NCBI GenBank assembly: GCA_030448025.1
Contig: JAUJNQ010000005.1
Coordinates: forward strand, 262,228 to 298,163
Reading direction: 5' to 3'
DNA: 35,936 nt
DNA from: Acidimicrobiales bacterium
GTDB lineage: Bacteria; Actinomycetota; Acidimicrobiia; Acidimicrobiales; GCA-2861595
Shown: in pieces, positions 6,266 to 35,936 of the stretch
Numbering within the stretch: the stretch's first letter is position 1
Layout: every line of letters begins with the position of its first letter
Program-made: the position numbers and the translations under genes
The notes under the pieces: generated by a model
Told to the model about the DNA's origin: nothing
Databases searched by the model: none
Seen by the model: the letters and a program-made list of their open reading frames with translations, nothing else

Positions 6266-6525
6266 GCCACGTGGTCTCCAACCTCTTGCACCTGGCCGGC
6301 TATCCCGTGTCGTTGGTCGTCATCGCCCGCTGGGTCCCTGTGGTGCGAGAGCGGCGATGGCGATGGTTTGCCGCCCATCAGGTGGGCGTGGCCGCGGTGG
6401 TCGTCGGCTGGCTGCTCCGTGGCAGAGCCGGCCCCGTCGCCGTCAACGGGGGCTGGCTGGTGGTGGCCGCAGTCTGGTACGCCCTCGGCGGACGAGCGAC
6501 AGGGAGTCGCTTGACAAGAGCCTGA
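6262..6525 (+). CDS. Small membrane protein of unknown function
   Basis: An 87-residue protein whose GTG start overlaps the stop of the upstream DinB-type gene (GTGA), so it is translationally coupled. It is rich in Val, Ala, Trp and Leu with two or three hydrophobic stretches (about residues 5-25, 38-51 and 62-76) separated by Arg-rich turns such as RERRWRW. I do not recognise a family. Its 3' end contains the -35 element of the promoter I propose for the next operon. Confidence 0.65.
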   Translation: MSHVVSNLLHLAGYPVSLVVIARWVPVVRERRWRWFAAHQVGVAAVVVGWLLRGRAGPVAVNGGWLVVAAVWYALGGRATGSRLTRA

Positions 6526-6538
6526 TCATCCTTAAGCT
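6511..6538 (+). promoter_or_regulatory. Probable sigma-70-type promoter for the MmpL-tetR operon
   Basis: A consensus TTGACA at 6511-6516 is followed after 16 bp by TAAGCT at 6533-6538 (TANNNT). The expected start of transcription, about 6545, lies inside the palindrome at 6536-6564 and upstream of the transporter start codon at 6581. Confidence 0.6.
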
Positions 6539-6564
6539 AACGGCGATAGGTTGTCGTTGTTAGC
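6536..6564. promoter_or_regulatory. Imperfect palindrome, candidate TetR operator
   Basis: GCTAACGGCGA (6536-6546) and TCGTTGTTAGC (6554-6564) form 11-bp inverted arms with two mismatches and a 7-bp spacer. The site overlaps the proposed -10 element and start of transcription, where a repressor would block RNA polymerase. The TetR gene at the end of the same operon is the natural candidate to bind it; that link is inference. Confidence 0.5.
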
Positions 6565-6580
6565 GAACAAGGAGGCCGTG

Positions 6581-7092
6581 ATGCTCGATCGACTGGGACG
6601 TTTCACCGTCCGGCGCCATCGGCGATCCTGCTGGCCACCCTCGTGGCCTTCGCCGTGGCAGGGGCCGTCGGCGGCGGGGTCGCCGACCACCTCTCCTCCG
6701 GTGGCTTCGAGGACCCGAGCGCCGAGTCCATCAGGGCCAAGCGAGTGGTGGAGAACAAGTTCGGCGCCGGCGACCCCAACTTGGTGTTGTTGGTCACGGC
6801 CCGTAGCGGGAGCGTGGACGACCCCGCCGTGGCCGCTGGCGCAGCCGCTCTCACCCAGGAGCTGGCCAACACCCCGGGCATCCAGCAGTCGGTGTCCTAC
6901 TGGACCCTCGGGTCGCCACCACCCCTCCGGAGCACCGACGGCAGCCAGGCGCTGGTGCTGGCTCGCATCAGCGGCGACGAGGACACCGTCAACGCCCGGG
7001 TCGAGGAGCTGTCGCCGGCCCTCACCCGCCAGAACGACGCCTTCTCCGTCGGGGTGAGCGGGTACGCCGAGGTGTTCCGCCAGGTGGGGTGA
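6581..7092 (+). pseudogene. MmpL-family RND transporter, N-terminal part, frameshifted
   Basis: The gene starts at ATG 6581, well placed behind AAGGAGG (6569-6575), with MLDRLGRFTVRRHR. After codon 14 the frame is lost: the expected first membrane helix (ILLATLVAFAVAGAVGGGV) continues in the next frame from about 6622, as if one G were missing in CGG-CG. That frame carries the first periplasmic domain (FEDPSAES, DPNLVLLV, GSQALVLARI, SGYAEVFRQVG) up to a stop at 7090. There the frame breaks again, as if one G had been added in the GGGG run at 7085-7088, and the protein continues from about 7093. With both bases repaired, 6581-8752 is one open frame of 723 residues, a normal length for this family. 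Confidence 0.75.
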
Positions 7093-10519: not shown

Positions 10520-11971
10520 GTGAGGCGTGGCTACGACCTGGTGATCGTGGGGATGGGGTCGGGCGGGATGGTGGCGTCGGAGTTCGCCGCATCCCTCGGG
10601 CTCAGGGTGGCCACGGTCGAGCGAGGGCGCGTCGGAGGCGACTGCCTCTGGACCGGCTGCGTCCCTTCCAAGGCACTCCTGGCATCAGCCAAGGTGGCCC
10701 ATCATCTCCGCACCGCCGACCGGTGGGGCCTGCCGGCACTGGACACGCTGGACATCGACACGTCGCTGGTGTGGAAGCGCATCCGTGAAACCCAGGCCCA
10801 GATCGCCGCCACCGACGACAACCCCGAGCGCTACCGAGCCCTCGGAGTGGAGGTCGTCCACGGTGACGCCCGCCTCACCGGCCCTCACAGCGTGGAGGTC
10901 GACGGCCGGACACTCTGGACGCGCTACATCCTGATCTGCACCGGGAGCCGGCCGGCCCAACCCCCCATCGAGGGTTTGGAGGAGGCGGGCTATCTCACCA
11001 GCGAGAACATCTTCGAGCTGGAACGGGCCCCGAGGAGCGTGGTGGCCATCGGCGGTGGCCCCATTGCCATCGAGATGGCCCAGGCCCTACGGCGCCTGGG
11101 GCTCGGCGTCACCGTCCTCCAGAGGGAGGACCAGATACTCGGCAAGGACGAGCCCGAGCTGGTTGCCCTGCTGACCCAGGTCCTGAGGGAGGAGGGCGTC
11201 GACCTCCAGCTCGGCGTCGCCGTCGACCGGGTGACGGTGGAGGACGGGCAGAAGGTGGTCCATGGTCACCGGGGGAGCGATGAGGTGCGCTTCGTCGCCG
11301 AGGAGCTCCTGGTGGGCGTTGGTCGCAAGCCCAACGTCGAGCACCTGGGCCTAGATGCCGCCGGTGTCAGCGTGGGCAGCCGAGGCATCGAGGTGGACGA
11401 GCGCATGCGCACCAACGTGGACTCGATCTATGCCGGCGGTGACGTCGCCGGCCGCTTCCTGTTCACCCATTCAGCCGGGCACGAGACGGTGCGGGCCGTG
11501 AGGGACATGTTCTTCCCCGGAAAGGGCGTCGTCAGCGAGCTGGTGCCGTGGTGCACGTTCACCGATCCGGAGCTGGCCCACGTCGGCCTCACCCAGACCG
11601 AGGCCCGCAAGATCCACGGCGACAGGATTCGGGTGCGCCGGCTGGACCTGGCCCACTCCGACCGGGCCCGCGCCGACGGCGAGTCCTTAGGGCGCTTCAT
11701 GGCCGTGTGCGGGCCGGGCGACCGTCTGCTGGGCGCCCACATCCTGGCCCCCCACGCTGGCGAGATGATTCACGAGCTGGCCTACGTCGTGAGTCGCAAG
11801 GGCCGGCTGAGCGAGCTGTCCAAGCTCATCCACGTGTACCCCACGCTGTCGACATCGATCGGCCAGCTGGCCGCCGAGTCCAGCTTCGACAACGCCCAGC
11901 GCTTCCGCTGGCTCACCACGCTGTCCCGCCTCGGAGGAACCGGGGCGTTCCCCTCTAGCCGAGACGCCTAG
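10520..11971 (+). CDS. FAD-dependent pyridine nucleotide-disulfide oxidoreductase (mercuric-reductase-like)
   Basis: 483 residues with the full class I fold: an FAD-binding GMGSGG (11-16), redox cysteines C42 and C47 (GGDCLWTGCVPSKALL), a NAD(P)-binding GGGPIAIEMA near residue 180, a second FAD motif IYAGGDVAG near residue 305, and a dimerisation domain. The C-terminal motif reads HVYPTLST, where lipoamide dehydrogenase has HAHPTLSE; the catalytic His is Tyr and the Glu is Thr. That points away from lipoamide dehydrogenase toward the mercuric-reductase-like branch. No N-terminal metal-binding domain or C-terminal Cys pair for Hg is present, so mercury is not supported. It shares a transcript with the DUF2269 gene. 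Confidence 0.88.
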   Translation: MRRGYDLVIVGMGSGGMVASEFAASLGLRVATVERGRVGGDCLWTGCVPSKALLASAKVAHHLRTADRWGLPALDTLDIDTSLVWKRIRETQAQIAATDDNPERYRALGVEVVHGDARLTGPHSVEVDGRTLWTRYILICTGSRPAQPPIEGLEEAGYLTSENIFELERAPRSVVAIGGGPIAIEMAQALRRLGLGVTVLQREDQILGKDEPELVALLTQVLREEGVDLQLGVAVDRVTVEDGQKVVHGHRGSDEVRFVAEELLVGVGRKPNVEHLGLDAAGVSVGSRGIEVDERMRTNVDSIYAGGDVAGRFLFTHSAGHETVRAVRDMFFPGKGVVSELVPWCTFTDPELAHVGLTQTEARKIHGDRIRVRRLDLAHSDRARADGESLGRFMAVCGPGDRLLGAHILAPHAGEMIHELAYVVSRKGRLSELSKLIHVYPTLSTSIGQLAAESSFDNAQRFRWLTTLSRLGGTGAFPSSRDA

Positions 11972-28953: not shown

Positions 28954-30165
28954 TCAGCGCTCCACCAGCGCCGGGCGGCGAGATCGCGCCTGCCGCCTCA
29001 GGGTCGCGCCTACCGTGGCGATCCCACCGAACAAGCTGGCGAGCAGCACCGCCACCCACGGGAAACCCTCCGCTTGCAACGGCGCGGCGCCGGTCCGAGG
29101 TGGGCCGACGACCCTCGGGAAGGCGGGACCCCCGGTAAGGGCAACCGGCACGGCCGGACCCCCGGAGATGGCAACCGGGGCGTCGGGAACCGGCGGGACC
29201 GGGGCAACCGGGACGCCAGGCGTCAACGCAGTGGGAATGTCCGGGAGCGCGACTGCCGTCGGCGTGCCGCCGCTCGGCGTGGTTCCGGTGGCGGCGGCAG
29301 GCGGCGCCGTGGTCGTCGTCGTCGGCTGCGTGGTGGTGGTGGCAGGCGGCGCCGTGGTGGTGGTGGTGGCAGGCGGCGCCGTGGTCGTCGTCGGGGGCGC
29401 CGTGGTGGTCGTAGTCGGGGGCACCTGCTGGGCGCAGGTCGGCGTGGTGAAGGTGTCGTTGTCCAGCGTCACCGCACCATTGCGGGCGAGGGCCCTCCCG
29501 TGCACGGTCACACCGCTCTCCACGGTGACTGAGGTCAGGGCCAGGATGTTCCCCCTGAAGACCGAGCCGGAACCGAGCGTGGCGGAGCTGCCGACCTGCC
29601 AGAACACGTTGCACTCCTGGGCACCGTTGATCAGGTTCACGGTGCTCCCGGACCCGGTGATGAGCGTCGAGTTGGTCTGGAAGATGAACACCGAGCTCGG
29701 GTCGCCCGCCCCATCGAGGGTCAGTGGTCCCGTGAGGCCGAGTGCTCCCTTGCTGGGTCCGGCGTACACGCCTCCTTGGAGGTTGAGGTTGACCAGATCG
29801 GCGGTGGTGGTGGCGTTGAGCGGCCGGCCGGCGGCATCCACGTAGGCGGCAGTCAGGTCGGATTGTGCCTGCTGCGCGGCCGCGTTGGTCGTGTCAGTCG
29901 TTGCCGGAGGAACCACGATCCCTGGTGGAAACCCCGTGATCGATGTTCCCGGCCAGAGCCCGAGACTGTTGTTCAGGACGGTGGCGTTGGTGTTGGTGAC
30001 CGTCGAGGCTCCCAGGACCGAGTAGTTGGCCGCGGTCGCCAATGGAACGGTCGGCACGATCGCCGCGTTCGCACCGGTTCCGACCAGGAGCAGTACCGCC
30101 GCCACTACCGTGAATGCGATCAGGGCTGCGCTCTTCCGGCGGGCCACTGCAACGTGCGTAGTCAT
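28954..30165 (-). CDS. DUF3494 (ice-binding-like) surface protein with sorting signal
   Basis: 403 residues. Signal peptide 1-34 (ALIAFTVVAAVLLLVGTGANA), then a DUF3494 domain at 40-245: LATAANYSVLGASTVTNTN, LTAAYVDAAGRP, GGVYAGPSKGALG, LTLDGAGDPSSVFIFQTNS, ECNVFWQVGSSATLGSGSVF and a final repeat-like GRALARNGAVTLDNDTF. Residues 249-290 are a Thr-Pro linker; 355-359 is PPRTG, followed by a membrane helix (about 368-388) and an RRQARSRR tail, a cell-wall sorting signal. DUF3494 is the fold of known ice-binding proteins, but most members are untested, so ice binding is only possible. ATG 30165 fixes the signal peptide; the ribosome binding site is weak. Confidence 0.9.
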   Translation of the reverse strand: MTTHVAVARRKSAALIAFTVVAAVLLLVGTGANAAIVPTVPLATAANYSVLGASTVTNTNATVLNNSLGLWPGTSITGFPPGIVVPPATTDTTNAAAQQAQSDLTAAYVDAAGRPLNATTTADLVNLNLQGGVYAGPSKGALGLTGPLTLDGAGDPSSVFIFQTNSTLITGSGSTVNLINGAQECNVFWQVGSSATLGSGSVFRGNILALTSVTVESGVTVHGRALARNGAVTLDNDTFTTPTCAQQVPPTTTTTAPPTTTTAPPATTTTTAPPATTTTQPTTTTTAPPAAATGTTPSGGTPTAVALPDIPTALTPGVPVAPVPPVPDAPVAISGGPAVPVALTGGPAFPRVVGPPRTGAAPLQAEGFPWVAVLLASLFGGIATVGATLRRQARSRRPALVER

Positions 30166-30299
30166 CAAAGAGCTCGTTTCGTACGAAGGAGGGCTGGGCA
30201 TCGCCACCAGCAGCACCGCCGTCGAAGGGGGACTTGTCCCACCTACGTGACGATCTGTTGACCTGGTCCGACCAAGGCCGCCCGAGAAGCTCTCAGGCA

Positions 30300-30428
30300 T
30301 CATCCGTGAACCAGCACGAGGGTGGGATGTCGCCACCCTTCCGGTGTTGTCGGCACGTAGGCGCCGAACCTGAGTTCCCTCCCGTACCCGTGGAAAGCTT
30401 CAGTGGTCGCCACCGGTATCCGATCCGT
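30300..30428 (-). pseudogene. Possible alpha/beta-hydrolase N-terminal remnant
   Basis: The reverse strand reads TEAFHGYGRELRFGAYVP and then PEGWRHPTLVLVHG before a stop at 30300. This resembles the start of an esterase domain, where a YVP strand and the first core strand end in the oxyanion HG motif. The rest of the enzyme (nucleophile elbow, acid, His) is absent, so at best it is a fragment. Low confidence because the match is short. Confidence 0.35.
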
Positions 30429-30578: not shown

Positions 30579-30701
30579 ATGACGAAGCTCACGATCGAGG
30601 TCGACGACAAGGTGGCCGGGCGTGTCAAGGAGCTGCGCCGGGAGCTGGCCGGGGAGAAGATGCAGAAGATGGCCGACGAGCGCCGCTCACGTGAGGGATG
30701 A
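30579..30701 (+). CDS. Short VapB-like antitoxin, probably truncated
   Basis: Forty residues: MTKLTIEVDDKVAGRVKELR at the start, then a charged helix ending in ADERRSREG. The opening strand followed by a helix is like the ribbon-helix-helix N-terminus of VapB-type antitoxins, but the usual toxin-binding tail is missing or very short. The stop overlaps the ATG of the next gene (ATGA), the classic layout of an antitoxin-toxin pair. GGAG lies five bases before the start. Confidence 0.55.
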   Translation: MTKLTIEVDDKVAGRVKELRRELAGEKMQKMADERRSREG

Positions 30702-30895
30702 GCGCCGGGCGGGTCCTGGTCGACACCGGCGTGCTCGTGGCTGTGGCCGACGCCGACGACCGCTGGCATGACCAGGCCAGCCCATGCTCGAGGTCCGCTC
30801 AGCTGACCAGCTCGTGCTCCCCGGCCCCGTGGCCGCCCAAGCGGCACCTCGGCAGGGTCCCTCTGCCGCATTGGCGCCTGACGTCGGCTTCTCCA
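30698..30895 (+). pseudogene. VapC-type PIN toxin, frameshifted and truncated
   Basis: ATG 30698 opens RVLVDTGVLVAVADADDRWH, a PIN-domain N-terminus with the first metal-binding Asp. After HDQAS the frame slips: the expected MLEVRSADQLVLPGPVAA continues one base off from about 30783. The likeness to PIN proteins stops near 30845, well before the other acidic residues, so the nuclease cannot be active. PIN toxins cleave RNA. The break lies just before the tRNA fragment at 30897, so loss of the 3' part may date from the integration event. Confidence 0.6.
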
Positions 30896-30896
30896 G

Positions 30897-30943
30897 TGGG
30901 CCGTGAGGGAGTCGAACCCCCGACCTCTTGCGCGTCATGCAAC
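30897..30943 (-). other. 3' part of a tRNA-Val(GAC), likely attachment site
   Basis: The reverse strand carries a tRNA from the anticodon stem to the discriminator base. The anticodon arm is TTGC-ATGACGC-GCAA (anticodon GAC), the variable loop AGGTC, the T arm GGGGG-TTCGACT-CCCTC with the invariant TTCGA, and the acceptor strand ACGGCCC with A73. Pair 27-43 is G-G, so the match ends at position 28. No D arm or 5' acceptor strand (expected GGGCCGT) lies next to it. Such a 3' piece is what remains at one end after an element integrates into a tRNA gene; the whole tRNA should lie at the far, right-hand end, outside the window. Confidence 0.6.
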
Positions 30944-31057
30944 CACGAGCCGTGTCGTCCTGTGGTGTCCAGTGTCGGAACGTGCCGCTGAGCAGGGCTT
31001 TTGCTGTCTTCCTTGTCCGGCTGATGCCGCCTGGTATCGCCCCTTTACCGGCAGTTG

Positions 31058-31077
31058 GTGATCATTCTGTGATCATT
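31058..31077. repeat. Two direct copies of GTGATCATT 11 bp apart
   Basis: GTGATCATT at 31058-31066 and 31069-31077, one helical turn apart, lies 115 bp inside the presumed element end. Each copy holds the palindrome TGATCA. It is a plausible binding site for an integrase or excisionase, or for a regulator; position is the only support. Confidence 0.5.
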
Positions 31078-31099
31078 GGGCGGTGTGCGTGTGTGTTAG

Positions 31100-31515
31100 T
31101 TAGGTGGCCGGTTCGGGGATCAGTTCGAACGCGTCACAGTGGGCGGGGCGCACCACGCGGAAGTCGCGGTGGTCGAGCGTCGCGATGGCGGTCTGGTGGT
31201 GGCGTTCGGCGATGACGCTGGCGTCGGCGGCGTCGAGGCCCAGGTCGGCGTAGGCGGTGATGAGCTCGCTGATGCGTGCCCAGTCCTGGCTGGTGAGGGC
31301 ATCGACCTGGATTTCGCCATCCGCGATGGAGCGGTAGAAGCCGCTTCAGCGGTGGCGTCAAGCTCTCGGCGAATCAGCCAACCGGCCTCGGTGACCACGA
31401 GTGAGGTGGTAACGAGCGGGCCGGGGTGGGCTTGGAGCAACGCCAGGCACTTCTGGTGATCGGGGTCGGCCTTGTCGGCGGTGGCGACGAGGGGGCCGGT
31501 GTCAACGATCGGCAC
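31100..31515 (-). pseudogene. vapC: VapC-type PIN-domain toxin, one frameshift
   Basis: GTG 31515 opens VPIVDTGPLVATADKADPDH with the first PIN Asp (D5), followed by HPGPLVTTSLVVTEAGWLI with the conserved Glu. After LDATAEA the frame breaks at about 31349; in the next frame GFYRSIADGEIQVDALTSQD leads to LGLDAADASVIAERHH and IATLDHRDFRVVRP, the third and fourth acidic clusters of a complete PIN domain. One missing G in GCGGC explains it: repaired, the gene has exactly 139 codons. So this is either a very recent pseudogene or a sequencing error. Its start overlaps the antitoxin 3' end by 14 bp. Confidence 0.75.
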
Positions 31516-31747
31516 TGTCGATGCCGAACCCGCCCTCAGCCAGGGTCTGCTCGGCATCCGCGGCCCGCCGGCCCGACGTAGACGATCCGAGCGCCGCGAA
31601 GCTGAGCTTGCGTCGTGGCTGCCCGAAACGTTCGGTCAGTACTTCGACCGCAACCTGCTCAGCGGTGACGCCACGGACTTAAGCTTCGGCGGCGAGACGC
31701 CCGGCGAGCGGCTCGGGAACCTCGACGGTCATGCTCATGGGCTCCAT
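31502..31747 (-). pseudogene. vapB: VapB-type antitoxin interrupted by an in-frame stop
   Basis: ATG 31747, four bases behind GGAGG, opens MEPMSMTVEVPEPLAGRLAA. Codon 23 is TAA (31679-31681), yet the same frame continues as VRGVTAEQVAVEVLTERFGQ and ends GGFGIDSADR at 31502, an antitoxin-like tail. This is a nonsense change rather than a frameshift. Only the N-terminal DNA-binding strand would be made unless the stop is read through. The toxin gene starts inside its 3' end, the normal order for these modules. Confidence 0.6.
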
Positions 31748-31989
31748 TGTGCCTCCGATCGGGCTTGCGTTCACCATGGCTGCCCGTCCTTCGGACACCC
31801 CGAGGTGGCGGAGGACATCGGGGTGGGGGCGGCGGATGGCTTGCTGGTCCGAATCGGCAACGGCCCGGAGAGCTGACCAGCGCCGGGTTGATGGACGCGC
31901 AGCAGCAGCCGGAAGTGGCGGTAGGCGGATAAGGCGAGCGGCTCGTTGTCGGGGAGCTCGTCGGGCCGAGCGCCGACCAGGACGCGCAT
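31748..31989 (-). pseudogene. Unrecognised gene remnant
   Basis: ATG 31989 opens MRVLVGARPDELPDNEPLAL and SAYRHFRLLLRVHQPGA, then coding-like sequence moves to another frame with LRAVADSDQQAIRRPHPDVL and RHLGVSEGRAAMVNASPIGG, which runs in phase into the antitoxin. It looks like a small gene with one indel near 31875. No family recognised. Confidence 0.35.
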
Positions 31990-32033
31990 GGCGAGCTACC
32001 CAACGATCACCTGCACCGTTCAGAGCCGTCGGG

Positions 32034-32175
32034 TCAGGCGTCGTCGTCGGGGCCGTGCCCACCGAGGGCCGGGTCGGCAGCCAGGTCGGCGTCGAGGGTG
32101 GCCTGGAACTCGTCCACGAGGTCGCCGGTGGTCATCCGCAGCAACAGCTCCCGGCCTTCGGGGGTGATGCGCGGG
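32034..32175 (-). pseudogene. C-terminal fragment of an unknown gene
   Basis: The reverse strand reads RITPEGRELLLRMTTGDLVD, then EFQATLDADLAADPALGG and an acidic end DDDA before a stop at 32034. It is a coherent C-terminal tail, but its upstream part is replaced at about 32175 by the traA-like sequence on the opposite strand. It therefore marks a rearrangement junction. Family unknown. Confidence 0.4.
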
Positions 32176-34665
32176 TCATCGACGGCATCCCCGAGGAGGC
32201 CCTCGACGTCCACTCCAAGCGGGCTGTCGAGATCAACGCCGCCGTGGCCGCCAAGGGATACGACACCTACCAGGCCCGTCAGGTGGCGGCCCGAAACACC
32301 CGCGGGACCAAGGCCCACACCCCGGTTGCCGACCTGGTCTCGCACTGGCAGGCCGAGCTGGGCGACGCCGGCTACCCCGTGGCCGAGCTCCTGTCCTCCG
32401 TGGAGCGGGCCGGAGCCGAGCGAGACCTGCGCCCCGAGCGCCTCAGGCAAGCGGAACTGGCCGAGCTCGTGGCCGAGGGCCTTGCGCCAGACGGCCCCCT
32501 CGCCACCCGCAAGGTGTTCTCCCGCAAGGACGTCATCGTGGCCGTGGCCCCCGCCTTGTTCGGCGCCCAGCCACTGAGCTCGACCGGGTGGTCGACGCCG
32601 TCGTGGCCGACCCCGAGACCATCCCCCTGCTGCACGTGGCCGGGGCCCAGGGAGCGGGCCTATGCGTGCGCCTCGGTCATCGCCGTCGAGGCCGCCATCG
32701 CGGACAGGGTGGCCGCCCAGGCGGGGCGATGCGACGCCGCCGCGGTGGCCTTCCCCGTCCTGGACCGGGCCATGTCCGAGGCCGAGGGTGCCCTCGGGGG
32801 TCGGGCACTGACCATGGGCCAGAGCGACGCCGTCATCGCCATGTGCACCTCGGGGCGGGGCCTGGACCTGGTGGTGGGGGTGGCCGGCTCGGGCAAGACC
32901 ACCACCCTCAACGTGGCCCGGGCCGCCTTCGAGGCGGCCGGCTATGAGATGGTGGGCACCTCAACCTCGGGCCAGGCCGCTCGCACGCTGGGCCGCCAGG
33001 CCGGGATCTCCGAGTCCCGGACCCTGGCCTCGCTGCTGTGGCGCCTGGACCACGGAAGGCTTCGCCTCAGCGAGCGCTCCGTGGTCATCCTGGACGAGGC
33101 GGCCATGACCGACGACGCCGACATGTTGCGCCTCCTTGTGGCCACCGAGGTGGCCGGGGCCAAGGTGGTCATGGTGGGAGACGACCGCCAGCTGGGCTCG
33201 GTGGGACCGGGCGGAGCGCTGGGCGCCCTCCTCGAGCGCCACCCCGACGCCGTGCATGTACTCCATGAGAACGTGCGCCAGGCCGACCCCGAGGAGCGCT
33301 CCGCCCTGGCCGAGCTGCGCTCCGGGGGGGTGGAGGCAGCCGTGGCCTGGTACGAAGCCCATGACCGCATCCTGGCCTGGCCCACACGCGACCAGGCCCT
33401 CGACGCCGTGGTCGAGGCCTGGGCCGCCGATGTGGAGGCCGGGGCCGATACCGCCATGCTGGCCTGGCGGCGGGCCAACGTGGCCGAGCTCAACGCCCGG
33501 GGCCGGGAAGCCATGGCATCCAGGGGTTACCTGGGAGAGACCGAGGTGGAGGTGGGGGAGCGCCACTACGCCACCGGCGACTGGATCGTGACCCTCGCTC
33601 CGGGCGCGGAGGGTCAGCTGGTCACCAGTGAGCAGGGGGAGGTCATCGCCGTCGATCCCGCCAACCACTTCCTCACCGCCCGCATGGACGACGGGAGGGT
33701 CCAGGCCTTTGGTCCCGAGGACCTGGCACCGGACCGCCTGGCCCATGGTTACGCCCTTACCGTACACCGCAGCCAGGGAGCGACGGTGGACACGGCGCAT
33801 CGCTTCGAGGACGGCGGGGGACGAGAGCTGGCGTATGTGGGCATGAGCCGGGCCCGGGAGCGCTCGGTGGCCTACGTGGTGGCCGACGACGTCGACCAGG
33901 CCCGAGAAGACCTGGTCCGGGACTGGAGCGCCCAGCGCCGCCAGCGCTGGGCCATCGACTCGGGCACCCCGGCCACCCACCCGCTGGCCGTGGAGCGAGA
34001 CGAGGCGGCCCCGGCCGAGCTTCGCACGTCACTCAAGCGGGCTCGCCTCGGCGCTGAGCGCCACGCCGTGGCGGCCGCCATCCCCGCCGATGCGAGCTCC
34101 GAGCTGCTCGGGGTGGAGATCGACCTGGCTGCTGCCGAGCAGGCCGGCAAGGATCTTCGGGCCGGCCGGGGCCGCTACGAGCGGACCGACATAGGCCGGG
34201 CTGCCGCTGAACTAATGACGGCCCGGATCAACCGAGCACACGCCGAGCGCCTACGCCGCTTTCCCGAAAACCGGATGGCGCGAACGGCGCGCCTACCGGC
34301 GGGAGGCTGAGATCCGCTCCGAGCGGGAGGCTGATGCCTCTGAGCGCTTCGAGCGCCTGGCTGGACGCGAACGCGACCGCCTGGCTGGCGAGGTTGCCCG
34401 ACTGGAGGAGCGCTGTGACGAGCTGACCTCGGCCAAGGTCGAGCGGGAGGACTGGCTGGAAGCCCACCCCGAGGCCAGCCGCCGCCTGGACCGCCTCGAC
34501 GCGGAGCTGGCTGCCCTGGATTCGCAGCTCCCAGTAAACGGCGTCGATCTGGCCGACGGGTTCGACCTGCGCACCATTGAACTCGGGCTTCGCCCTGCTC
34601 CGGGGCTCGAACTTGGCCCCGACCTCGGCCCCGACCTTGGTATGGATCTCGGCATCGACCTGTAA
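32175..34665 (+). pseudogene. TraA/MobF-type conjugative relaxase-helicase lacking the relaxase domain
   Basis: The protein matches TraA-like conjugation enzymes from the linker VIDGIPEEALDVHSKRAVEI onward. The RecD-like helicase is intact: Walker A GVAGSGKTTT (about 32878-32907), Walker B VVILDEAAMTD, VGDDRQLGSVG, TVHRSQGATVD and YVGMSRARE near 33840. A coiled-coil tail (EIRSEREADASERFERLAGR and onward) ends in repeated DLG at 34665. The N-terminal relaxase with its His triad and catalytic Tyr is missing; the frame just runs in from unrelated sequence. Three single-base indels are apparent: one lost near 32575, one G gained near 32653 and one A gained at 34267-34270; repaired, it has 830 codons exactly. 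Without the relaxase it cannot start transfer. Confidence 0.8.
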
Positions 34666-35054
34666 CGGTGCCTGATCACCGTGTGTCGCTGCTCTCAACG
34701 TCACAGTATGGTGGCGACTTCCCCCGTCGCCGCCAGTCGCTGGCACCGGTGAGCGACCCGTTCCTGCAGGCGAGAACGCTCCAGGGCATTCCGCGCTCCT
34801 CGGGGGGAGTGATGTCGGGCAGTGGGGGACTCAGTGTCTACGGTGCCGAATCGGGCGCGATGGTGTCCCCTCTGCCACCCGCCCGCCGCACGTCATTCTC
34901 GCGACTCAGCGCCATGGGGCCGAGGATGGCCCGCGGGTCATCGAGGACCTCGTCTGTTATCGGGTCCGAAGAAAGTTATCGGGTCCGAAGAAAGTGCCGT
35001 TCCCGAGCGCTCTCGAGTCGGCGCTCGCGCCAGGCGGCTGGCAAGCTGAAGCAC
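34666..35054. other. Stretch without an intact gene, possible gene remnant
   Basis: No complete gene. Coding-like pieces appear in two forward frames: RARWCPLC with a CxxC knuckle at 34849-34875, then HVILATQRHGAEDGPRVIED and LVCYRVRRKL at 34889-34978. They could be one broken small protein. The 19-bp duplication at 34957-34994 falls in the second piece and shifts its frame. Confidence 0.4.
34957..34994. repeat. Perfect tandem duplication of 19 bp
   Basis: TTATCGGGTCCGAAGAAAG occurs twice without gap at 34957-34975 and 34976-34994, about 60 bp before the next gene. It is either a slippage duplication or a pair of binding sites for a regulator of that gene. Confidence 0.9.
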
Positions 35055-35747
35055 GTGCGTGCGGCTGACCTTGCGAGAGAGCTCGGCGTCGATCCGAAGC
35101 GACTACGTCAGTGGCTCCGGGACAACTTTACTCACGAGCACAACGCTCCGTGGGATCTCACACCCGAGCAAGAGGCGCTGGCTCGCGAGAGATTTAGCGA
35201 CAGGCGTGGCGCCCCATCTCGGCGTCCCGCGGCCTCGGACGACCATCCGTCGCGTCCTCGTAGTCGCGATCGAAGCGATGAGGCATACGTCATCGACCTC
35301 TCTGACGAGCTCCTCGGACGGAGAGCTCTTCGGCAACACCGGTTCTCATGGCTTGTCGGCGACCCCGGCAAGTCAGGCGTTCGTGCTTGCCTACCGGTCG
35401 ACGCCTACTACCCCGATGAGGCCCTTGTCATCGAGTATCGGGAGCGCCAGCACTACGAAGCGACCCCGTTCTTTGACCGGCGCGAGACCGTAAGCGGTGT
35501 CGGGCGCGGGGAGCAACGGCGACGCTACGACGCTGTGCGAGAACGTGAGCTTCCCCTGCACGGGATCCGGCTCGTTGTGATCCGATCGACGGACCTGCAT
35601 TGCGGTCGGCGCGGGCGCCTGCTTCGCGACCGTCGAGCCGACACCACTGTTCTCCGGGGCCTGCTCGTGCCCGGCGCAGCGCTGAGGTCGGCCGCGTCAC
35701 CTTCGACGAGGTGCGCACCTAGCCGAACCGCGTGGGGACGGCGCTGA
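35055..35747 (+). CDS. Helix-turn-helix protein with a restriction-endonuclease-like domain
   Basis: About 230 residues from GTG 35055. The first 50 residues, RAADLARELGVDPKRLRQWL and PWDLTPEQEALARERF, form a small DNA-binding helix-turn-helix of the kind found in actinobacterial Lsr2-like tails. After an Arg/Ser/Pro-rich linker comes a compact domain with FSWLVGDPGKSGVRACLPVD, AYYPDEALVIEYRERQHYE, GVGRGEQRRRYDAVRE and HGIRLVVI. The D, then E-Y-R spacing on adjacent strands resembles a PD-(D/E)xK nuclease core with Arg in place of Lys; that is inference. It could be a defence or DNA-maintenance enzyme. The start is uncertain, with no good ribosome binding site; upstream sequence is not family-like. 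The last 30 residues look less conserved. Confidence 0.65.
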   Translation: MRAADLARELGVDPKRLRQWLRDNFTHEHNAPWDLTPEQEALARERFSDRRGAPSRRPAASDDHPSRPRSRDRSDEAYVIDLSDELLGRRALRQHRFSWLVGDPGKSGVRACLPVDAYYPDEALVIEYRERQHYEATPFFDRRETVSGVGRGEQRRRYDAVRERELPLHGIRLVVIRSTDLHCGRRGRLLRDRRADTTVLRGLLVPGAALRSAASPSTRCAPSRTAWGRR

Positions 35748-35784
35748 ATTCATGCGCTGCAACGGTGCCGGAGTGGGGCGATCG

Positions 35785-35936
35785 TCACATAGCGAGCTGT
35801 TCGATGGCCAAAGGCGGAGCGGCAGCGGCACGCTCGACGCCCAAGGAGCCGTTTCCGCCCCACCAACCCTTCTTACGCGGGATGTATTGGTACCAGAAGT
35901 CTTGCCCGTAACCGGAACGGTCGGCCAAGGTGTTGA
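35785..35936 (-). CDS. C-terminal part of an unrecognised protein
   Basis: The frame is open from the window edge to a TGA at 35785 and gives 49 residues: NTLADRSGYGQDFWYQYIPR, then KKGWWGGNGSLGVERAAAA and PPLAIEQLAM. The aromatic, lysine-rich stretch and lower GC at third positions (TTG, GGT, CAA codons) differ from the core genes to the left and suit transferred DNA. The rest lies beyond the window and I cannot name a family. Confidence 0.45.
   Translation of the reverse strand, partial: NTLADRSGYGQDFWYQYIPRKKGWWGGNGSLGVERAAAAPPLAIEQLAM

Follow-up and report, generated by a model that had tools for sequence, protein, structure and literature searches.

Does the half tRNA near the right end of this stretch of DNA mark the end of an integrative element, on which side does that element lie, and where is its other end? 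The window, meaning the whole stretch of 35,936 nucleotides that was analysed, corresponds to G000:C12:262228-298163 in an assembly of 13 contigs. Contig C12 ends at 298163, and the right edge of the window (35936) is therefore the end of the contig.

The tRNA-Val(GAC) fragment

The question turns on a single feature:

30897..30942 (-), probable attachment core, the 3' part of tRNA-Val(GAC) (100% match to the tRNA of G017; without an ARAGORN call)

It had been proposed from the letters alone that this is a tRNA running from the anticodon stem to base 73 without a 5' half, and this reading was right. The minus strand from 30942 to 30896 (TTGCATGACGCGCAAGAGGTCGGGGGTTCGACTCCCTCACGGCCCAC) comprises 47 nt, all of which (100%) match the 3' part of the complete tRNA-Val(GAC) of G017, a relative from the same order. 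Since the match has an E value of 3.6e-18 in a search of one genome, it is not due to chance. The fragment covers everything between the 5' strand of the anticodon stem and base 73 but lacks the 5' half; ARAGORN called no tRNAs in the whole window.

Islander describes tRNA-gene islands with a displaced 3' tDNA fragment, for which crossover in the anticodon loop is one main subsite (site A) (PMC4383910). A 3' tDNA fragment with a breakpoint of the recombination type is present here, and the window fragment is an element end of the signature type described by Islander. Broken genes abound around the core, and the 5' half could instead have been lost by deletion or rearrangement with no involvement of integration. 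We consider this highly improbable, since the breakpoint in the anticodon stem recurs at this place in fragments of other tRNAs and of other genomes, and since an arm-like motif is found at a conserved spacing of 70 bases (see below). We propose that the core is very probably the attachment-site scar at the distal end of a decayed integrative element that used tRNA-Val(GAC) and that lies to the right. That a degraded element has its left end here had already been proposed in the sequence-only reading; it is supported by the fragment and its orientation as well as by the damaged conjugation gene on the right.

A candidate integrase arm motif

The 3' flanks of 14 other tRNAs in this genome have in common a motif around AAAGCCCAGGTCA, and these flanks, without the window, were used to build a matrix by eye. 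Two matches of this matrix flank the core:

30989..31002 (-), candidate P arm (integrase arm-type site), AAAAGCCCTGCTCA; 17.1 bits, the top matrix match in the window
30879..30892 (-), decayed candidate P' arm, AGAAGCCGACGTCA; 11.5 bits, the third-best matrix match in the window

The candidate P arm lies 46 bp 5' of the core and 70 bases from the T-loop GGTTC. This is 46 bp inside the right-hand side, where the element should be; its placement to the right is as predicted. The decayed candidate P' arm lies 4 nt 3' of the core, a position that agrees with that of P' arms elsewhere. P arms tend to contain CAGCTCA or CTGCTCA and P' arms CAGGTCA, and the right-hand arm of the window is of the P type.

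The P arm is the only match of at least 15 bits in the 36-kb window. A further 13 such matches were found in 432 kb of other stretches of the genome, which lie near contig ends, tRNAs and integrases and are not a random sample, and nine of the 13 were at a tRNA or tRNA fragment. Wherever an integrase was found directly downstream at the tRNA loci examined, the motif was present; the two apparent exceptions, with an integrase and no motif, were tRNAs just upstream of a motif-bearing tRNA. As an independent check, intact tRNA-Val(GAC) genes with an adjacent integrase were taken from relatives, and all four were found to carry the motif (11.4-22.9 bits). The integrases of this group appear by eye to start with a short arm-binding-like domain. 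Judging from position and conservation, it is probable that the motifs are integrase arm-binding sites; a literature search with the motif string gave no match.

The same anatomy at other loci

The strongest evidence for an attachment-site scar is that a candidate arm site is found exactly where other element ends of the order carry one. The end of the P arm is exactly 70 bases from the T-loop GGTTC in the window, on contig C10 of this genome, in the family relative G003 and in most of the tRNA-Met fragments tested, while the spacing is 65-69 bases in several other fragments and a few are without a good P arm. The tRNA-Met fragments with arm geometry like that of the window are found in other families.

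For tRNA-Val(GAC) itself, the complete gene with an integrase directly downstream was found in the relatives G017, G003, G005 and G033, and both the complete gene and the fragment in G003 and G017. In G003, the complete tRNA-Val and integrase are on C120 and the matching 3' fragment is on C168, with an identical 14-mer, GAAACCGCAGGTCA, at both ends. In the present genome, C10:737-782 is a 3' fragment of tRNA-Pro(GGG) with the motif 47 bp upstream and 2 nt downstream, and C9 starts with a complete tRNA-Pro(GGG) and an integrase. The two tRNA-Pro(GGG) copies differ in the T-stem with pairing kept, as would result from the delivery of a new 3' part by the element. Taken together, G000:C9:1-5086 and G000:C10:1-790 resemble the opposite ends of a single tRNA-Pro(GGG) element interrupted by an assembly gap.

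A complete tRNA-Met is followed by 3' fragments of tRNA-Met(CAT) in tandem, several of which have an integrase of their own, and these series form unusually long element arrays (G001:C265 (L203), about 6476-6600; G268:C1:4065777-4261576; G209:C1:872884-1008462; G092:C1:404357-639751). In G268 the complete gene is followed by six downstream matches over 196 kb; in G209, where the series is similar, there are four fragments besides the complete tRNA-Met, with an integrase 3' of each.

Across 298 genomes of the order, a pattern of motif, spacer and T-loop gave 62 matches, whereas the mirrored control matched in 16 genomes. Inspected by eye, about 18 of these 62 places hold truncated tRNA genes (Met, Pro, Arg, Ala, Cys, Val). 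BLAST confirmed 8 of 30 fetched places as tRNA 3' parts, one of which was still a full tRNA by ARAGORN. Phylum genomes outside the order gave a handful of pattern matches, none of them a truncated tRNA by eye and one a complete-looking tRNA-Pro. With some reserve, we incline to the view that lineage-restricted integrases with many tRNA targets (Val, Pro, Cys, Met, Leu, Arg, Ala) keep one arm motif and a fixed 70-base T-loop geometry, resulting in a common, searchable end signature and in tandem pile-ups (about six tRNA-Met fragments in a row, G268/G209).

Element ends can be identified by a short arm motif that stands at a constant distance from a half tRNA, without an integrase or full tRNA and even in incomplete genomes, and the signature also ties together the two contig ends C9 and C10. 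With it one can further test directly whether an arm-binding specificity is common to integrases that differ in their tRNA targets. The arm-motif geometry and the tandem arrays at tRNA-Met, which are by-products of this analysis, are of more interest than the locus itself.

Genes to the right of the core

A VapBC pair, a TraA-type helicase, rearranged gene ends and short repeats had been claimed as right-hand neighbours of the fragment, and these neighbours are real:

31103..31550, approximate boundaries (-), vapC relic, frameshifted, PIN domain over two frames (PIN profile)
31502..31747 (-), vapB relic with an in-frame TAA (six-frame reading)
32177..34511 (+), traA relic, MOBF-type relaxase/helicase without the N-terminal relaxase part (Pfam, NCBIfam, sister-gene identity)
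34668..35747 (+), element gene, an open frame whose helix-turn-helix match is weak (HTH_Tnp_1, E 0.0079, below cut-off)
34956..34995 (+), perfect 19-bp tandem repeat GTTATCGGGTCCGAAGAAA, 2.1 copies (TRF score 80)

The vapBC relic occupies about 31103-31747 (-). Its vapC is read as frameshifted since the PIN matches, which are weak and below the Pfam cut-off (E 0.014 and 0.019), cover profile positions 2-54 and 62-117 of 120 in different frames. The traA relic matches AAA_30 with an E value of 8e-51 and TIGR02768 (TraA_Ti) with an E value of 1.7e-73, the latter below the TIGR02768 cut-off, and changes frame near 34.2-34.3 kb. Only the last ~65 residues of the TrwC relaxase domain are left (profile positions 216-284 of 286), and the intact TrwC-type relaxase domain that characterises MOBF elements is therefore missing from this copy.

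A second traA at the left end of C7 in the same genome (C7:1-3089) keeps relaxase profile positions 17-285. The window copy has 62% protein identity to C7:636-2705 and 72% DNA identity over 32177-34511. The sister gene belongs to a tRNA-Cys element whose integrase adjoins tRNA-Cys. It faces the integrase/tRNA end and the window copy faces away from the fragment, so that, with the tRNA-Val fragment as the distal end, the order would be the same in both. A search of the named genome collection for TraA relatives gave one partial match, in an Acidimicrobiia MAG; going by this relative alone, the organism probably belongs to the class Acidimicrobiia. From its domains and its sister gene, the window traA is taken to be a relic of a MOBF conjugative or mobilisable element. 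The tRNA-Cys element itself (G000:C7:1-9200, L130) contains a MOBF relaxase, an AriA-like ATPase followed by one gene, a dCTP deaminase and the integrase, and may carry phage-defence cargo.

A contig from the viral collection (IMGVR_UViG_3300006876_000002, 11437-11562) has a tRNA-Val(GAC) 3' core between two arms, with P' inverted and an integrase adjoining. Phages may therefore use attP sites of this layout, and the window fragment could derive from a prophage rather than from a conjugative or mobilisable element. This is improbable, as the sole recognisable gene of the element is the MOBF relaxase/helicase and no phage genes were recognised in the right end of the window.

The predicted integrase end

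No integrase was found in the 5 kb visible to the right of the core; 17 integrase matches were found elsewhere in the genome, several of them beside tRNAs. The complete tRNA-Val(GAC) and adjacent integrase predicted for the other end are not in this assembly, the tRNA being absent from its 46 tRNA matches, but the two were found together in relatives, as described above. Also absent from the assembly is tRNA-Gly(GCC). In the nine long open frames of the window, GTC accounts for 170 of 470 Val codons and GGC for 269 of 526 Gly codons, and with codons this common both tRNAs must exist in the cell. The missing tRNA-Val(GAC) is thus best read as an assembly gap, and since both missing tRNAs must exist, the integrase end of the element is probably in the unassembled part. 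The absence from the genome of a tRNA-Val(GAC) with this 3' sequence, which the sequence-only reading would have counted against an element, is consequently a formal absence, for which an assembly gap is the likelier explanation. Metagenome assemblies frequently break inside mobile elements, leaving one end visible. Contig G000:C13 stops exactly at the end of a tRNA-Gly(CCC) (L127, 4002-4073), which is probably another assembly break at an integration site.

The left side of the core

A comparison with empty sites was sought on the left. The left flank shares no genes with the surroundings of tRNA-Val in family relatives, and no empty site was found among them. Synteny with the same-genus contig G001:C442 extends over about 19.7-28.2 kb; it breaks off at 28.16 kb and does not reach the core. 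The next gene past this break did not date the junction, because it has several homologues in this genome. Beyond the break there is also a gene for an ice-binding-like protein at 28954-30336 (-) (PF11999, E 1.2e-53). One further relic was noted on this side:

30580..30780 (+), vapB and vapC start-like relic (reading frames, by eye)

Pfam gave no matches for 30580-30780.

Because a decayed copy of the other arm is present on the left, the fragment may not form a clean border with undisturbed chromosome, and may instead adjoin an older element of which most has been lost. The decayed P' motif points either to an earlier use of the target or to an older element that formerly came next. In its fullest form, this reading makes the core a junction inside a tandem array, with the distal end of one element on the right and, on the left, the integrase-side end of an older, largely deleted element in the same tRNA. 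It is a refinement of the attachment-scar explanation and not its opposite, and we hold it as a tentative possibility. Both arms are present, as at the array junctions of G268, G209 and G092, the P' copy on the left is where it would be expected, that side also has a vapBC-like relic, and 28.16-30.9 kb is without a match in G001:C442. However, the left side, in contrast to the G209 junctions, showed no recognisable remnant of an integrase, and the P' motif is also found 3' of tRNAs without a detected integrase, such as Phe and Ala(CGC), so that it may be a relic already in the target site.

Proposed origin and related elements

If the core is the scar of an integration, a tyrosine integrase would have recombined the attP of the element with the tRNA gene, the crossover falling in the anticodon loop. 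At the integrase end the gene would then have been made whole by the tRNA 3' copy that the element brought along, and its original 3' part would have been displaced to the far end, where it forms the window fragment. The element would span from 30943 rightwards past the contig end. The P arm, 46 bp inside, would probably be the binding place of the N-terminal domain of the integrase, and the left 14-mer is probably a decayed P' arm left by a previous occupant of this tRNA. The present element was probably once mobilisable or conjugative by means of its MOBF relaxase (TraA). Since it has decayed, with TraA lacking its catalytic part, its own transfer start would now be lost, and any remaining ability to excise would depend on the integrase of the unassembled end.

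As in Islander-type islands, the 3' fragment starts from the anticodon stem, the element is on the 5' side of the fragment, and the integrase is beside the complete tRNA in relatives. Unlike in those islands, the complete tRNA and integrase fall here in an assembly gap, and candidate arm sites at fixed distances, common to several tRNA targets, are an addition. With the actinobacterial T4SS-type or mobilisable MOBF (TrwC/TraA) elements (PMC3218068), this element shares a TraA-like relaxase/helicase, a tRNA target and, in the sister elements, a tyrosine integrase. It differs from them in having lost the catalytic part of the relaxase, and no coupling protein or VirB4 gene was seen in the 5 kb of element available. 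AICEs are likewise small tRNA-targeted elements with a tyrosine integrase, but neither an FtsK/SpoIIIE-type Tra translocase nor a Rep gene was matched by Pfam in the open frames scanned, the element being visible for only 5 kb. The Acidimicrobidae were described as devoid of AICEs (PMC3218068).

Several other loci of this genome were noted. At G000:C4:361479-364412 (L140, 9480-12413), a tRNA-Leu(TAA) with an integrase is followed 2.8 kb downstream by a 22-bp repeat of its 3' end with an inverted arm motif, and represents a very short element or a remnant. Two trios of adjacent tyrosine recombinase genes (G000:C4:476854-479197 and G000:C7:272925-275268) have equal scores, are apparently identical and resemble recombinase-trio transposons. 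Finally, a selenocysteine tRNA is predicted at about G000:C7:169204 (L143, 1205-1298).
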